From NCBI GenBank assembly GCA_002869065.1, contig PKTR01000002.1:806001-870000 (forward strand): DNA of 64,000 nt, read 5' to 3'. Origin of the DNA: Hyphomicrobiales bacterium. GTDB lineage: Bacteria > Pseudomonadota > Alphaproteobacteria > Rhizobiales > Rhodobiaceae. The notes beneath the pieces were generated by a model, which had not been told where the DNA came from, did not search any database, and saw only the letters and a list, made by a program, of their open reading frames with translations. Shown in pieces: positions 38,432 through 46,303 of this stretch (positions are counted from its first letter, which is position 1; each line of letters begins with the position of its first letter). Both the position numbers and the translations under genes were made by a program.

Positions 38432-40174
38432 TCAGTTGGCGAATTTGAAGAAGTGGTCGCCCGGGCGTTCCTTGACCATGCGCGAAAAGACGGCGGCCGC
38501 TTCCTGCTTGCTCAACGGCTTGGCCGGCCTTGCACCGATCAAGCCGGTAATCAGGCTGCCGTCACCCTTTACGCCGGGCACCCCACCACCCTTGGCGGGG
38601 GGAACGGCGGCCGAGCCCGGGGTCAGGTCCGAGCCCGGCCGCACCGACGGCACAGGTACGCCGCCGATCTGAGAATCATGTGTGGCAATCGATCCGGTCA
38701 CCTCGCCTGTCGTGCCCGCATCGGCGACACGTTCGAGATCCGGCATGCTGGTGCCGAGGAATTTCGCGGCAACGCGCTTGCTGTTTTTGGTGGCGTCATA
38801 GACCGCCGTACCAAGACCGAGGGTTTCGGCGCGCAGCCGGCCGACGGAGGCAATCAGCGTGTATTCCGTAATGCGGCGTTCGTAGCGCGCATTCTCGAGC
38901 GACACGCGCGCCGAGACGATTTCCTGTTCCGCATTCAGCTCATCGAGCACCGAGCGATCGCCGATCTCGCGCTCCTTGCGCACGCCCTTGGCGGCGGCGC
39001 GGGCGGCGGCGACCTGCCGTTCGATCAGGGCAACGCGGCGCTTGGCGGATTCGTGCTGTTCCCAGGCGGTCTGCGCGGCCGCTGTAACGCCATATTGCGC
39101 ATCGCGCGCCTCGTAGCGGCGCTGCATTTCGACCGCCTTGGCGGCGCGCACACGGGAATGCTCGATCCCCTTTGTGAAGATCGGCACGTTCAGTTTCAAC
39201 ATCACATTGGTCGTTTCCTGCTCCGAGGTGGAATAGGAGACGTCGTGCTCATGCAGATAGTCGACATGCAGGTCGAGCGTCGGCATGAATTCGCCGACTG
39301 CGGCCTTGCGGTCGAAGTGGGCGGCGTTTTCAAGGTGCAGGGCGGCCGCGAGCCGCGGATTGGCCTCACGCGCCAGCGCAACCGTATCGGTCAGCGACAA
39401 CGGCAGCAGATGGGCGACGGGTGTGGGATCGCTCAGCTTGCCCGGCGCTTGTCCGACCAGCTGGGCGTAGCTTGCCTTGCTCACCTCGAAATCGGCGAGC
39501 GCCTTGTCGAGATCGGCGCGGGCGGCGTTGTAGCGCGCCTCGGCCTGGCTGACGTCAGTTCGGGTGTTGACGCCGCTCTTGAACTGCGCGCGCGAGGTGC
39601 GCAGGATTTTCGACACGATCTGCAGCGACCGGCGGCGGTGGGCGACGATGCGCTGGTCGCGCAGGACGCCGAGATAGGCGCCGGCGACATTGAGCATCAC
39701 GTTCTGCTCGGTATCGACGAGCTGAGCGTGGCCGGCGGCGATGTTGGCTTTGGCGCTGCGCGTCTCGTTGACGGTCCTGAACCCGCGGAAGATCGGTTGC
39801 TGCAGCGACACGCCGTAGCTGTAGGGATTGACGTTGTAGGAATCGAAGCCCGGCCGGCGGACGAGCTGGTTCGGCACCGACTTGTCGACATTGTTGGAAT
39901 AGCCGTACTGCGCGCTGGCGCTGACGCTCGGCAGCCAGTTGCTGCGCGCCTGCGGCAGCTTCTCATCGGTGGCAAGCTGGCGGGCGCGGTCGGCCTGCAG
40001 GGTCGGATTGGCGACATAGGCCCTGCCGAACGCCTCGTTGAGGTTTTCGGCGCGGGCATTGCCGGATAGCGCCGTCAGGACACACAGCAGAGCTGCCGTG
40101 CCTGTCAACATGGTCCGCCAATGACGATGGCGCGCTGGCCAATCGCAGCGCTGACAACGCAAACTTCCGTCCAT
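38432..40174 (-). CDS. TolC-family outer-membrane channel of type I secretion
   Basis: A 580-residue outer-membrane efflux protein. After a hydrophobic N-terminus (MLTGTAALLCVLTAL then NARA-ENL) come the two repeated TolC segments (LNEAFGRAYVANPTLQ and a second DTVALAREANPRLAA with long coiled-coil helices). Start ATG 40174 is preferred over a TTG five codons upstream, because GAGGG precedes it. The C-terminal tail is Pro/Gly-rich. It is the last gene of the minus-strand type I secretion run 46119-38432, so it very likely serves the tandem ABC/HlyD exporter. Confidence 0.92.
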   Translation of the reverse strand: MDGSLRCQRCDWPARHRHWRTMLTGTAALLCVLTALSGNARAENLNEAFGRAYVANPTLQADRARQLATDEKLPQARSNWLPSVSASAQYGYSNNVDKSVPNQLVRRPGFDSYNVNPYSYGVSLQQPIFRGFRTVNETRSAKANIAAGHAQLVDTEQNVMLNVAGAYLGVLRDQRIVAHRRRSLQIVSKILRTSRAQFKSGVNTRTDVSQAEARYNAARADLDKALADFEVSKASYAQLVGQAPGKLSDPTPVAHLLPLSLTDTVALAREANPRLAAALHLENAAHFDRKAAVGEFMPTLDLHVDYLHEHDVSYSTSEQETTNVMLKLNVPIFTKGIEHSRVRAAKAVEMQRRYEARDAQYGVTAAAQTAWEQHESAKRRVALIERQVAAARAAAKGVRKEREIGDRSVLDELNAEQEIVSARVSLENARYERRITEYTLIASVGRLRAETLGLGTAVYDATKNSKRVAAKFLGTSMPDLERVADAGTTGEVTGSIATHDSQIGGVPVPSVRPGSDLTPGSAAVPPAKGGGVPGVKGDGSLITGLIGARPAKPLSKQEAAAVFSRMVKERPGDHFFKFAN

Positions 40175-40394
40175 CGTACCCTCACTCAAGGACCTGAACG
40201 CTGGTCCCGATACTGCCGTTACTCCGGCTAAATACGATCATGGTCTGTTAAGGTTAAATTCTCGTAACCGACGAGAAACGCAGTTCTTTTTTTCCGAGTT
40301 TGGGAGAAGGCAAGCAAATGCGAGGCGCCGGGCAGTAATCCGGTGACACCTCGGCGTCACCAGTCGTGGCGGCCGGACATGCTGGAAAGGACGC

Positions 40395-41726
40395 TCAGCG
40401 TTCCGAGAAAGCGACGTTGAGCGAGCGATAGATCGGCTTCAGCAGATACTGCATCACCGACTTCGATCCGGTGATGATATCGGCCTGTACGACCATGCCG
40501 GGCAGCAGCGGATAGTCGACCCCGCCGCGGCCAACCGACATGCGGTCGAGCGCAACGGTCGCCTTGTAATAGACCTCGCCTTGCTGGGTCTCGAAGGTGG
40601 TCGGCGAAATACCGCTCACCTTGCCGGAGACGGCGCCGTAGAGTTCGGAGTCGAAGGCGGTGACCTTGACCTCGACCGGGTGGCCGATCTGGACGTGGCC
40701 GATATGATCCGGGGTGAGCTTCACCTCGGCAACCATTTGCTGCTTCTGGGGAACGATCTTGGCGACGACGTCGCCGGAGCGGATCACCTCGCCGGGGGCG
40801 ATCGGTACGATTTCCTGCACCAGACCGACGCTCGGCGAACGGATGAAAAGGCGGTCGACGCGGTCATCGAGCCGCGTCAGGGTCGCCTCGGTCTCCGCCA
40901 GTTCAGCGCTCACAGTGGCGACCTGCTCGCTCCATTCGCGGGTCTTCTTGGCGTTGTATTCCGACAGAAGGTTCCTCGCTTCGGCGAGCGCATCGGCGGC
41001 CGCGAGCGCACGCTGCGTGGCCTGCGCCAGCTTCGAGCGCGTCTGCACCACGGTCGACTTGGCGTTGAGATAATTGACCTTCGACGAATACCCCTGTTCG
41101 AACAGCGACGCCCTGAGCGCGAATTGTTCGTTTTCGATGGCGAGTTGCTCGGTGAGCGCACTCTTTTCCTCGCTCAGGCTCGCCAGTTCGGCGCTGCGCT
41201 GGGCGATACGGGACGCGAGTGTCGTACGTTCGCGTTCGACCAACTCCACTTCGGAGCGATAGAACGCGGCTTGCTGGCGGCCGTGCCTGAAGGGCGTGTC
41301 GAGATCGAATTCCGGCGCCGTATCGGAAAGCAGGGCGGCGAGACGACGGCGCTGCTGTTCAAGATTGATCCTGCGGCTGGTCAACTGCTCGCGCTCGCTC
41401 GACGCCTGCACCGGAGCAAGCCGGATGAGCGGCTGATCCTTGGCGACGAGATCGCCGGGATGGACCAGAACCTCGGCGACGATGCCGCCCTCCAGGTGCT
41501 GAACCTGTTGAACGAAGCCCTCGGGAATGATCTCGCCCTGCGCGATGGCGACCTCATGAACCGGCGCAAGCGCGGCAAGCGCGACGATGAAGATGACGAA
41601 GGCGCTGACCCATTTCAGGATGCCGCCGAAAAACGGCAAGGCACGCCCGCCCTCGAGGTCGAGGGGCGCAGCAAGGGGCCCGTGGGAAGAAGCTCCCGAA
41701 GCCGGGTTTTGCGTTCGTGGCGCCAT
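40395..41726 (-). CDS. HlyD-family membrane fusion protein (type I secretion)
   Basis: Periplasmic adaptor linking the inner-membrane ABC exporter to TolC. The 443-residue protein has an N-terminal membrane anchor (FVIFIVALAALAPV around residue 40), biotinyl-lipoyl-like half motifs (VLVHPGDLVAKDQPLIRL), a long coiled-coil (~100-250) and a C-terminal beta-barrel region with the HlyD-type LLPGMVVQADIITG. It lies between the ABC gene upstream and the TolC gene downstream. Confidence 0.93.
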   Translation of the reverse strand: MAPRTQNPASGASSHGPLAAPLDLEGGRALPFFGGILKWVSAFVIFIVALAALAPVHEVAIAQGEIIPEGFVQQVQHLEGGIVAEVLVHPGDLVAKDQPLIRLAPVQASSEREQLTSRRINLEQQRRRLAALLSDTAPEFDLDTPFRHGRQQAAFYRSEVELVERERTTLASRIAQRSAELASLSEEKSALTEQLAIENEQFALRASLFEQGYSSKVNYLNAKSTVVQTRSKLAQATQRALAAADALAEARNLLSEYNAKKTREWSEQVATVSAELAETEATLTRLDDRVDRLFIRSPSVGLVQEIVPIAPGEVIRSGDVVAKIVPQKQQMVAEVKLTPDHIGHVQIGHPVEVKVTAFDSELYGAVSGKVSGISPTTFETQQGEVYYKATVALDRMSVGRGGVDYPLLPGMVVQADIITGSKSVMQYLLKPIYRSLNVAFSER

Positions 41727-41866: not shown

Positions 41867-44278
41867 CTATCCAGCGGCCTTCTTCTGACCCTGATTGAGG
41901 ATCGCGGGCACGATCTTTGCCGGCACGTCGTCAGCGACCACCATGCCCTCGCGCAGATAGATGACGCGGTCGCAGGCGTTCATGTGGCTCGGCCGGTTGG
42001 TGACGATGATGACGGTCGCCTTGCCGCGCAGATCGTTGAGCTTCTCGATCAGCGCCTTGTCGCCTTCCTGGTCGAGATAGGTGCCGGGCTCGTCGAACAG
42101 GTAGATTGCCGCCGATTTGGTCAGCGCGCGGGCGATCGACAGCCGCTGCTTGAAGCCTTCCGGCAGGGCCTCGCGGTTGCCGAGGCGAAGATGGGTGTCG
42201 AGCCCATCGGTCAGCGCGCCGTCATTTTCCGGAATGCCGGCCTCGCGCAGCGCACGCTCGATATCCTCGCGGGTCGCGGTCGGCTCGGCGAGCAGCATGT
42301 TCTGGGACACCGTGCCGTAGAAGAAGAAGTTCTGCTGCGGCACGTAGGCGATGGCGTTGCGCAGCTCGCCCGTGTCGATCTGCCGCACGTTGAGGTCGTC
42401 GATGCTGATCACGCCGGCCTGCGGCTGGTAGAGGTTGAGCAACAGCTTCAACAGCGTCGACTTGCCGGCACCGCTCGGCCCGGCGATGGCGACGAGCTGG
42501 CCGGCCGGAATCTTGAAGGTCGCACCCTTCACCACCGGCTCGGCGTTCGGCGCGTAGCGGAAGCCGACGCCGGCAAAGGTGATCTCGCCTTCGAAGCTGC
42601 GCAGCACGGAGGGGATCTGGCCCGGCTGACGTTCGGTGCGGATGCGCATCAACTGGTTGATCTGGCGGATCGTGTCGGCGAACTGGCTGATCCGGTTGAT
42701 GCTGAGGAAGGCAATCTGGATCGGCGACAGGATGCGCCAGATGAACACCATCGAGGCGATCAGACCGCCGACCGACAGCGCTTCGTTGATGACGAGCAGC
42801 GCGCCGACGCCGAGCGTCGTGACACCGGCCAGGGTCACAAGGCTCTGCGAGATGGTGTGCAGCGACATGTTGAAGAACTGGGCGTCGAATTTCAGCGCCA
42901 TCGCGTGCCGCGACAGTTCCTCATAGCGCTGGCGCCAGATCGCTTCGGCGCCGATCTCGCGGATATTGCGGCGCTTCTGCAGGATCTCGATCTGCAGCGT
43001 CTGCAGCTTGGTGCGGTTGCGGCCGGTTTCGGCGACGTGCCGCTTGACCTTCGGCAGCGAGGCGAAGGCCAGAACCGCGAACACGACGACCAGCGCCAAC
43101 GGCACGAAAACCAGCGGGCCGGCGATCAGCGTAATGGCAACAAAGAAGATGATCGTGAACGGCAGGTCCATCACCGCGTTGACGATGTTGCCGCTGAAGA
43201 ACTCGCGGAAGCTCTCGAACTGGCGGAAACGCGAGATCTGCGCGCCGATCGAAGCGCTTTCGGTCATGGCGATCGGCATGGTGACGATCTGCCGGAACGC
43301 CTGGATGACAAGTTCGGAATCGAAACGAGTGCCGACATAGGCGACCAGCTTGCTGCGCCGGCGGCGCAACAGCCACTCGGAGGCGATGACGGCGGCAACC
43401 GCGACGAAGAAATACGCCAGCGTCTCCAGCGACCGGGCGCCGATCACGCGGTTGTAGACGTTCATCACGTAGATCGGCGTCAACAGCGCCAGCAGATTGG
43501 CGAACAGGGTGAAGACGGCGATCGTCGCGATCGGGCGCTTCAGCTTGCCGAGCGATTCCCAGAACCAGTTCTGCCGGCGCAGCGCTGCCGGATCGAGCTC
43601 TTCGGAGCCGCGCTCGACGAAGAACAGGGTCTGACGGCAGGTCTGGGGCTTTTCGAGACGGAAGGTGCCAAGCGCGCCACGGAAGACCAGAAGCCGGTCG
43701 TCGTCCTGCCGCTCGACGATCACCAGAGGTTCGCCGTCCTCGTCGAGGCCGATGCAGGGAAACTGTTCCGATTTCAGCGCCGAGGTGCAGGTGTGGCGCT
43801 CCTTGGTGACATAGCCGACGCGGTGCAATACCGCGCGCAGGCCTTCGACACCGCGGATCGGATCGAAATGCGGCAGCGCTTCGAGAAGATGGCGTTCCTC
43901 ACCGCCCCAGTTGAGCACGGTGAGCAACGGCCGCAGGCAGGCGGCGGCCGGCGTTTCCGCTTCCTCGCGGTCGATCCGCGGGCTGAACCTTGTGCTCCCC
44001 GATGCGGCCTGACCGGTGCCGGCCGTGCTGTCCGCATCGGCGGCCGCGGCACGGTCGTCTTCGGTCTCAGCCGCAGCGGACACATCGGCGTAGGTCGGGA
44101 ATCCGGTGAACGCCTCGTTCACCCGCGACTGGCGCGCGCGCGCATCGTCGCCCGCCATGGCCTCGCGATCGGCGCGCAGGGCTTTCAGCGTTTCCATCCA
44201 GGACGGCTGCCAGTCGGCCGGCGGCGGTGTCTGCTGGACGACCCGCTTGCCCTCGCGCGGGGTGCCTCTGTCGGTCAT
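41867..44278 (-). CDS. Type I secretion ABC transporter, second of a tandem pair
   Basis: An 803-residue permease-ATPase. Residues ~1-120 are low-complexity; ~130-250 look like a degenerate C39-like peptidase domain without the catalytic Cys. A six-helix membrane domain follows, then the nucleotide-binding domain. The Walker A is canonical (GPSGAGKST, near 598) and Walker B is intact (LFDEP near 726). However, the signature reads LPEGFKQR instead of LSGGQ, and the switch position has TNRPS where a His is usual (HR). The start overlaps the stop of the upstream ABC gene by 4 bases. It probably pairs with that protein as a heterodimer. Confidence 0.9.
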   Translation of the reverse strand: MTDRGTPREGKRVVQQTPPPADWQPSWMETLKALRADREAMAGDDARARQSRVNEAFTGFPTYADVSAAAETEDDRAAAADADSTAGTGQAASGSTRFSPRIDREEAETPAAACLRPLLTVLNWGGEERHLLEALPHFDPIRGVEGLRAVLHRVGYVTKERHTCTSALKSEQFPCIGLDEDGEPLVIVERQDDDRLLVFRGALGTFRLEKPQTCRQTLFFVERGSEELDPAALRRQNWFWESLGKLKRPIATIAVFTLFANLLALLTPIYVMNVYNRVIGARSLETLAYFFVAVAAVIASEWLLRRRRSKLVAYVGTRFDSELVIQAFRQIVTMPIAMTESASIGAQISRFRQFESFREFFSGNIVNAVMDLPFTIIFFVAITLIAGPLVFVPLALVVVFAVLAFASLPKVKRHVAETGRNRTKLQTLQIEILQKRRNIREIGAEAIWRQRYEELSRHAMALKFDAQFFNMSLHTISQSLVTLAGVTTLGVGALLVINEALSVGGLIASMVFIWRILSPIQIAFLSINRISQFADTIRQINQLMRIRTERQPGQIPSVLRSFEGEITFAGVGFRYAPNAEPVVKGATFKIPAGQLVAIAGPSGAGKSTLLKLLLNLYQPQAGVISIDDLNVRQIDTGELRNAIAYVPQQNFFFYGTVSQNMLLAEPTATREDIERALREAGIPENDGALTDGLDTHLRLGNREALPEGFKQRLSIARALTKSAAIYLFDEPGTYLDQEGDKALIEKLNDLRGKATVIIVTNRPSHMNACDRVIYLREGMVVADDVPAKIVPAILNQGQKKAAG

Positions 44279-46119
44279 GCCTGCGCCTCCCGCTTTTCGG
44301 GGGCTTCGAACTCGCGGCCACCGACCAGAGTCGGAATACCGTCATGGATCTCGAACAACCGGTCGGCCAGATTGAAATAGGACGGCCGGTTGGAGCTCAT
44401 GACGATCGAGGTCTTGCCGCGCAAGGTCTCGAGATAGCGGATCACGTCCTGATCGGCCTCACGATCGAGGAACGCCTGCGGCTCGTCCATGACCAGGATC
44501 GCCGGCTTGCGGGCGATGGCGCGGGCGATCGCGATACGCTGCAGGAATCCGCCGGGCAGCGCTTCGACGAGGCTGTCGCCGAGCGGTGTGTCGTAGCCGG
44601 CCGGCAGCCGGTGGACGATCGCCTCAACGCCGGTCTCGCGGCAGGCTTCGCGCGCTTCGTCGACGAGCGGGCCGTAGCCGAACAGCGTCAGGTTGTCGAG
44701 AATCGTGCCCTTGAACATAACCGGCTTCTGACCGACGAAGCCGACCAGATGGCGAATGTCACGGTGCTGCAGATAGGGGTCCAGATCGCCGATGCGGATC
44801 GTGCCGGTATCCGGCTGACGCTCGCCCCAGACGAGATCGAGCAGGGCCGACTTGGCGCCGTTGCTGGCGCCCTTGAGGGCGATGAATTCGCCGGACTCCA
44901 CAGTGAGATGAACGTCGTTCAGCAGAGGCTTGCCATGTTCGCTCAGGGCCACGCCCTGCAGCAGCACGACCGGCGGCGCGCCGTCGGCATCGAGCGCCAA
45001 CGCGGGTGCAAGTGGCGACGGCCGCGGCAGTTCAAACAGGCTCTGCGCTTCCTTCAGGGCCAGATTGATGGTCTGCAGCTCACTCCACACGCTGATCGCG
45101 CGCAGCAGCGGCTGGATCATGCGGGTGGTCAGCATGGTGCAGGCGGCGAGCGTGCCGACCGTCATGTGGCCGTAGACGGCGAGAACGGCACCGATGGTCA
45201 CCATGAGAACGGTGGTGACGTTGGCCAGCGACAGGCCGATGGTCTGCGCCATGCCGTTCAGATTGATCATCTGGTAGTGGATGCGCGCCGTGGTCTCCTG
45301 CAGCCGCTCGAAGCGGCGCAGCAGGAACGGCTCCATGCCCAGGCTCTTGGCGGTCTGGATGCCGGACAGGCACTCCATCAGGAAGTCATAGCGGCGGTCG
45401 TTGTGCTGATGCTGCTCTTCGAGCGTGCCGCGCAGGCGGCGAGCGCGCTGCGAGGTTTCATAGCCGACGGCAACGGCGACCGAGATCGGAATGACCGCAA
45501 GCGGGCCGCCGATCAGGATCAGCATGGCGAAGAAGATAAGCATGAATGGCAGGTCGAGCAGTGCGAGCCGCGACTGGCCGCCATAGAAATCGGCCAGCGT
45601 GCTGATCGCGGTCAGACGGTCGTTGAGCGCGCTCGGCGGTGTGTCCGCCAGGCGGTGGTCAGGGGCATTCAACACCCGGTCGATGGCATCGAGCGAGGCG
45701 ACATGGGCAAACCCGGTCGCCTTCCAGCCGATCACATACGACCGGGACAGGCGCAGAAGCGCCTCGATGATGACAACAACGACCAGACCGAGGATCATCA
45801 TCGCCAGCGTCATGTAGGCGGTGTTGGGAATGATCCGGTCGTAGACCTGGAGGATCACCAGCGGCAGGGCAAGGCCGAGCATGTTGATGATCACGGAAGC
45901 GACGATGACCGAACGGGACACTTCCGAATAGCTGGTCCATTCGGGCCCGAGCGCCGACAGGCTCGGCAAGCCGGCCTTCCACGGCGACCCGCACCCGGCA
46001 CCGGCTTCATCACCATCCGGTATTCTGCCCGCGGCACGCGCATCATCGCCCGTCGCAGCTTGCCTGCTGCTACGGGAAAGGATGCGTTTCGCGAAACGTT
46101 TTGCGGTGTGGCCCGTCAT
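44275..46119 (-). CDS. Type I secretion ABC transporter, first of a tandem pair
   Basis: A 614-residue permease-ATPase. The membrane domain begins near residue 80 (SVIVASVIINMLGLALPLV) with about six helices. The nucleotide-binding domain has an altered Walker A (GASNGAKS near 415: Ala replaces the Gly before the Lys), signature LPGGFLQR in place of LSGGQ, Walker B ILVMDEP intact with its Glu, and SSNRPS at the switch, where Asn stands for His. It shares the odd signature and switch with its neighbour, suggesting co-evolution. ATG 46119 is chosen over TTG 46128. It is first in the secretion operon. Confidence 0.88.
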   Translation of the reverse strand: MTGHTAKRFAKRILSRSSRQAATGDDARAAGRIPDGDEAGAGCGSPWKAGLPSLSALGPEWTSYSEVSRSVIVASVIINMLGLALPLVILQVYDRIIPNTAYMTLAMMILGLVVVVIIEALLRLSRSYVIGWKATGFAHVASLDAIDRVLNAPDHRLADTPPSALNDRLTAISTLADFYGGQSRLALLDLPFMLIFFAMLILIGGPLAVIPISVAVAVGYETSQRARRLRGTLEEQHQHNDRRYDFLMECLSGIQTAKSLGMEPFLLRRFERLQETTARIHYQMINLNGMAQTIGLSLANVTTVLMVTIGAVLAVYGHMTVGTLAACTMLTTRMIQPLLRAISVWSELQTINLALKEAQSLFELPRPSPLAPALALDADGAPPVVLLQGVALSEHGKPLLNDVHLTVESGEFIALKGASNGAKSALLDLVWGERQPDTGTIRIGDLDPYLQHRDIRHLVGFVGQKPVMFKGTILDNLTLFGYGPLVDEAREACRETGVEAIVHRLPAGYDTPLGDSLVEALPGGFLQRIAIARAIARKPAILVMDEPQAFLDREADQDVIRYLETLRGKTSIVMSSNRPSYFNLADRLFEIHDGIPTLVGGREFEAPEKREAQA

Positions 46120-46303
46120 GCCGCTCAAGGATCGTTACAAAAACTCGCAATGCCGCAGTTCGGCATTTGGGCATGACGGTAGGCCACGACTGCTTAGCGA
46201 GCGGTTAACCATACGGCGGGAATTGCCCAAAAACCGCGGAAAACAGTCCTATCCTGCAACTTTTATGCGAAACTCGTACTGACGGAACGACCGTAGGGCG
46301 ATC

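Follow-up and report, generated by a model that had tools for sequence, protein, structure and literature searches.

A tandem pair of LapB-related ABC transporter genes with eroded ATP sites probably encodes a heterodimeric type I exporter of giant adhesins

Two adjacent genes for ATP-binding cassette (ABC) proteins, here called A and B, are followed on the same strand by genes for a HlyD-type adaptor and a TolC-type channel in a 64,000-nucleotide stretch of DNA from a Hyphomicrobiales bacterium (assembly GCA_002869065.1, contig PKTR01000002.1, positions 806,001 to 870,000; referred to as the window). Neither A nor B contains LSGGQ, the motif after which ABC proteins are named. The locus raises the question of whether A and B work together as one exporter and how such an exporter is powered. 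HlyB, PrtD and other classical type I exporters act as homodimers. The original prediction, made from the DNA alone, took this as its starting point and proposed a heterodimer with a different ATP cycle. Its premise is correct for the classical systems, but a type I system with two ATPases, RtxB/RtxE of the MARTX loci, was already known (PMC3034196). Most likely, A and B constitute a heterodimeric type I exporter of giant adhesins that derives from a LapB-type exporter and has asymmetric ATP sites.

The locus comprises four intact, in-frame genes in the order A-B-HlyD-TolC (Table 1). Open reading frames (ORFs) and NCBIfam models bear out the predicted arrangement of an overlapping ABC pair with HlyD and TolC behind it. 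The adaptor reaches 330 bits with TIGR01843 (cut-off 208.65) and the channel 302 bits with TIGR01844 (cut-off 225.15). Together with the ABC exporter they represent the component set of type I secretion. The best NCBIfam model of both ABC proteins is TIGR03375 (LssB/LapB type), with 333 bits for A and 468 bits for B, both under the cut-off of 693. A starts with TTG; position 46119, formerly given as the gene boundary, belongs to an in-frame ATG three codons further in.

The motifs described for the pair were found in the translations: LP(G/E)GF in place of LSGGQ, Asn in place of the switch His and an intact Walker B Glu in both subunits, and an altered Walker A (GASNGAKS) in A. The degenerate C39-like domain of B was also recovered in the alignment. 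Its interpretation as an unusual trait was dropped, because such a domain is ordinary for HlyB/LapB exporters. The Cys column of the domain is retained in most B sequences and the usual His motif is not evident; Pfam reports no C39 match for B, the domain being too diverged. A lacks this domain, as the residues preceding the transmembrane domain (TMD) have a median number of 43.5 in A versus 183 in B.

Tandem orthologues occur in 13 further genomes from the same order (61 genomes searched, the window genome and relatives of it), and many more were found in searches at class and phylum level, some of them in a second class of this phylum. Named members are located on plasmids of Azospirillum and Phaeobacter. 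The order A-B-HlyD is kept in about 70 loci, and the A and B genes usually overlap. A contig scan using protein A alone as the query returned distant ABC proteins and no orthologue. Trees of 128 sequences were calculated with FastTree from full-length, TMD-only and nucleotide-binding domain (NBD)-only alignments. A (51 sequences) and B (48 sequences) form separate clades, which are joined in one clade with a support of 1.0 (full-length), 1.0 (TMD) and 0.998 (NBD). This joint clade is the sister of the LapB-type exporters and lies outside them. The three alignments agree except for L058, an exporter of the window genome that adjoins B in the TMD tree. L059, a long branch in the first tree, is an unrelated ABC protein and was removed. 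A description of the A/B exporters was not found in a literature search confined to open-licence papers; apparently, they are a widespread, previously undescribed family. The A/B and LapB/LssB exporters are linked by the top NCBIfam match, the sister position, an inactive C39-like domain and, presumably, giant adhesins as cargo. In contrast to A/B, LapB/LssB exporters have one subunit instead of two, LSGGQ is lost in A/B and the scores of A and B stay below the TIGR03375 cut-off.

The formation of one heterodimeric exporter by A and B, as originally proposed, would explain four features and is strongly supported by them: the separate clades, the tandem order, fusions of the two genes and the asymmetric decay of the subunits. 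A and B are fused to a single ORF of about 1300–1430 aa in 12 of 67 aligned pairs. The fused pairs fall in two clades, corresponding to two events by parsimony. Because fusions arose in two clades, they support an obligate heterodimer. Two separate homodimeric exporters that share only HlyD and TolC would be in line with the homodimers of HlyB and PrtD and with the presence of a TMD and an NBD of its own in each subunit. However, such exporters would leave unexplained the fusions and the near-constant association of the two genes. Furthermore, the ATPase motifs of A are complete in 7 of 66 pairs and an A homodimer would usually have no complete site. This arrangement is very improbable.

The closest solved fold for both subunits is that of HlyB in its complex with HlyD (PDB entries 7sgr and 8dck). 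AlphaFold2 single-chain models (A: pLDDT 71, pTM 0.45; B: pLDDT 75, pTM 0.43) resemble HlyB of the HlyB/HlyD complex and PrtD in the case of A, and HlyB (7sgr_A) in the case of B. The complex consists of three HlyB dimers and six HlyD, and the C39-like domain of HlyB binds cargo and contacts HlyD. Unlike the A/B pair, in which this domain belongs to B only, HlyB is homodimeric. In the PDB entries of HlyB the first protomer is modelled over 691–700 residues and the second one over 570, which presumably reflects a single ordered C39-like domain per dimer. If this is the case, the A/B pair would fix the asymmetry genetically.

LSGGQ is present in 0 of 50 A and 0 of 48 B sequences and in none of the 66 scored pairs, including those of the other class. 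Gln does not occur at position 5 of the signature in any of these A or B sequences. Since the loss is common to every orthologue scored, neither chance nor a sequencing artefact, the latter having been considered in the original prediction, accounts for it. The expectation that the substitutions are conserved as a clade thus holds for the signature, but not for the Asn. The H-loop His is found in 52 of 66 B and 20 of 66 A sequences, and Asn at both H-loops is lineage-specific. Orthologues with an ordinary LSGGQ and His had been named as evidence against unusual sites; none has the former, whereas the His is ordinary in part of them.

A complete set of Walker A Lys, Q-loop Gln, Walker B Asp and Glu and H-loop His is present in 48 of 66 B sequences, compared with the 7 of 66 in A. 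In the signature, Pro at position 2 is kept in 57 of 66 A versus 26 of 66 B and Gly at position 4 in 59 of 66 A versus 42 of 66 B. An ATP site is built from the Walker motifs of one half and the signature contributed by the other half. Thus, the better-kept parts (Walker motifs of B, signature of A) share one site and the eroded parts share the other, a distribution to be expected if the first of these is the working site. In the other class, the signature of B is LSxGF or similar and its His is present, and A has LPxG[IV] and in most cases another residue in place of the His; this suggests the likely ancestral pattern. In ABC exporters, conservation is normally highest in the NBD. The ratio of NBD to TMD identity, 1.37 for canonical type I exporters, drops to 1.18 for B and to 0.96 for A.

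RtxB, RtxD and RtxE resemble the A/B system in several respects. Two ABC proteins are combined with one HlyD protein, both ABC proteins seem to be required for secretion of a single giant protein, and tolC lies outside the MARTX cargo locus (PMC3034196). A heterodimer of RtxB and RtxE has been suggested, and in both systems the cargo gene and the exporter genes are transcribed divergently. A/B might be a canonical heterodimer of this kind, with signature changes that are functionally neutral. This is decidedly unlikely, as the gene orders differ (rtxB-rtxD-rtxE versus A-B-HlyD), A has no C39-like domain and the signature is lost clade-wide. The two systems were compared by their descriptions; plasmid pcBtQ1 of Cardinium, examined for RtxB/RtxE sequences, gave no match to either profile.

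A giant protein of up to 4600–4800 aa is encoded divergently from A at many of the loci. These proteins contain RTX repeats, cadherin or PA14 domains according to Pfam and, in Azospirillum, immunoglobulin-like (Ig-like) domains by annotation. Twelve of their C-termini are alignable. A model of the C-terminal signal was built from the last 70 residues of proteins adjoining the A-B genes, with RTX repeats excluded. It matches 22 of 289 genomes of the class, namely 19 of 33 genomes with the tandem and 3 of 256 others (Fisher p = 4e-18). For this count the tandem call of genome G127, in which the A gene is fragmented, was corrected. With the genomes that served as sources of the model removed, the signal is found in 10 of 24 tandem genomes versus 3 of 256 others (p = 7e-10). 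Secretion of giant RTX/cadherin/Ig adhesins as the probable function of the A/B exporters is well supported by this co-occurrence. The window genome made no contribution to the model and yields exactly one match (contig C6, L160:3-5474). The match lies at the end of a cadherin/RTX protein that has at least 1819 aa; the contig edge cuts off its 5' end. This protein, encoded in trans, is the most promising cargo candidate for the window pair. The cargo N-termini (L134-L143 and others) are too variable for a search; a short motif, N-x-H-x-G, is located about 60 residues into these otherwise variable regions.

The window is one of 18 of 66 pairs without a complete NBD in either subunit. Its closest relatives (L040, L046 and L049) show similar erosion, and the Glu of B is gone too in all three. 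The pair belongs to a subclade that evolves fast and in which NBD erosion is strongest, no cargo gene is adjacent, and two genomes of the same genus have no C-terminal signal and only distant matches to A. These observations would fit a decaying, non-functional copy that is under relaxed selection and has lost the adjacent cargo gene. Such a copy is unlikely, considering that none of the four genes is disrupted or out of frame, that the window genome retains a protein with a matching C-terminal signal and that more eroded homologues from Phaeobacter are under purifying selection. In the latter (L063:14848-18713; L223-L225), A and B have each lost the Walker A motif, the Walker B Asp, the signature and the H-loop, and with them essentially all ATP-site residues. 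Comparison of P. gallaeciensis with P. piscinae gives ratios of nonsynonymous to synonymous substitution rates (dN/dS) of 0.06–0.07 for the TMDs and 0.13–0.19 for the NBDs. For the fused gene of Azospirillum the values range from 0.06 to 0.33 across TMDs and NBDs. A and B of Phaeobacter stay under purifying selection, although both ATP sites are destroyed.

In the proposed A/B exporter, the inner-membrane motor would be an obligate heterodimer that arose from a duplicated LapB-type exporter. B would be the main ATPase half, in which most ATPase residues are kept, and would contact cargo and HlyD via its C39-like domain. A would be the partner half that has lost this domain and much of the ATPase. 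Together with HlyD and TolC, the pair would export a giant RTX/cadherin adhesin via the conserved C-terminal signal. The site composed of the A Walker motifs and the B signature is predicted to be degenerate, with nucleotide held or weakly used. Most of the hydrolysis would take place in the site composed of the B Walker motifs and the LPxG signature of A. In the window lineage, this site has lost the switch His as well, and hydrolysis is therefore probably slow or dependent on the Walker B Glu alone. An altered ATP cycle of the pair, as originally proposed, is inferred from these motifs. In part of the family, Phaeobacter being the most extreme case and the window lineage partway there, neither ATP site might hydrolyze canonically, which appears unlikely. 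Export of giant adhesins would then be driven by ATP binding alone, by a borrowed ATPase or mainly by calcium-driven folding of the exported RTX cargo outside the cell.

Several points weigh against the heterodimeric adhesin exporter. We infer the physical association of A and B, the identity of the cargo and the hydrolyzing site from sequence, and the predicted single-chain models of A and B are of only medium confidence. The monophyly of A has moderate support (0.69–0.83). The signal model was derived from the neighbours of A and B themselves and finds no signal in 14 of 33 tandem genomes; in the window, a cargo gene was not found beside the A-B pair. All motif columns were taken from one alignment, in which fast NBDs (e.g. 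L063, L117-L122) are possibly misaligned locally. Additionally, the decay of Walker and signature motifs correlates equally within and between subunits (rho 0.34–0.40). As between-subunit pairs are not favoured, the composite-site argument rests on conservation levels and not on covariation.

Unequal halves with one degenerate site are also a feature of TM287/288, TmrAB, BmrCD and MsRv1273c/72c. These known degenerate-site exporters keep one good consensus site, whereas LSGGQ is found in neither half of the A/B family across two classes. Within the family, ATP sites naturally range from almost canonical to completely eroded, and in two lineages the halves are fused. This range makes a long-standing question testable, namely how much hydrolysis of ATP is required for type I secretion of very large proteins. 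In addition, the family is an unannotated group of exporters that appears to be tied to giant surface adhesins with a recognisable C-terminal signal.

Table 1. Genes and ATP-site motifs of the A/B locus (positions refer to the window).
Feature	Position	Strand	Basis
Subunit A, ABC exporter half (TMD and NBD, no C39-like domain), 617 aa	44275-46128	(-)	ORF; Pfam ABC_membrane, ABC_tran
Subunit B, C39-like domain, TMD and NBD, 803 aa	41867-44278	(-)	ORF; Pfam
Overlap of A stop and B start, 4 bp	44275-44278	(-)	ORF coordinates
HlyD-type periplasmic adaptor	40395-41726	(-)	TIGR01843
TolC-type outer membrane channel	38432-40189	(-)	TIGR01844
A Walker A GASNGAKS, altered	44848-44871	(-)	translation, alignment
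A signature LPGGF	44545-44559	(-)	translation, alignment
A Walker B Asp-Glu, intact (VMDEP)	44482-44487	(-)	translation, alignment
A H-loop Asn (SSNRPS)	44389-44391	(-)	translation, alignment
B Walker A GPSGAGKS, canonical	42458-42481	(-)	translation, alignment
B signature LPEGF	42152-42166	(-)	translation, alignment
B Walker B Asp-Glu, intact (LFDEP)	42089-42094	(-)	translation, alignment
B H-loop Asn (VTNRPS)	41996-41998	(-)	translation, alignment
B C39-like domain	43574-43945	(-)	alignment

A terminator-like hairpin is located immediately upstream of A (46149-46167, (-) strand) and would end the preceding dehydrogenase gene. Sites returned by promoter and terminator scans were no commoner than in shuffled sequence. 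The window genome contains two further tandem pairs of ABC exporters (L056:4493-8216 and L057:4041-7543), which fall outside the A+B clade. Both members of the L056 pair have LSGGQ, and the L057 pair has LSGGQ and ISGGE. The same genome is rich in ORFs with RTX repeats (187 repeat matches); just beyond the window end, such repeats are found in a frame of 309 aa (contig C2:870019-870240). Divergent A-B tandems are present in genomes of 1.4–2.4 Mb (L117, L119-L122 and L125). The catalytic Glu of A is mostly replaced in these tandems, by Asn or, in L117, by His. In L119, L120 and L121, a protein of about 890 aa adjoins A.

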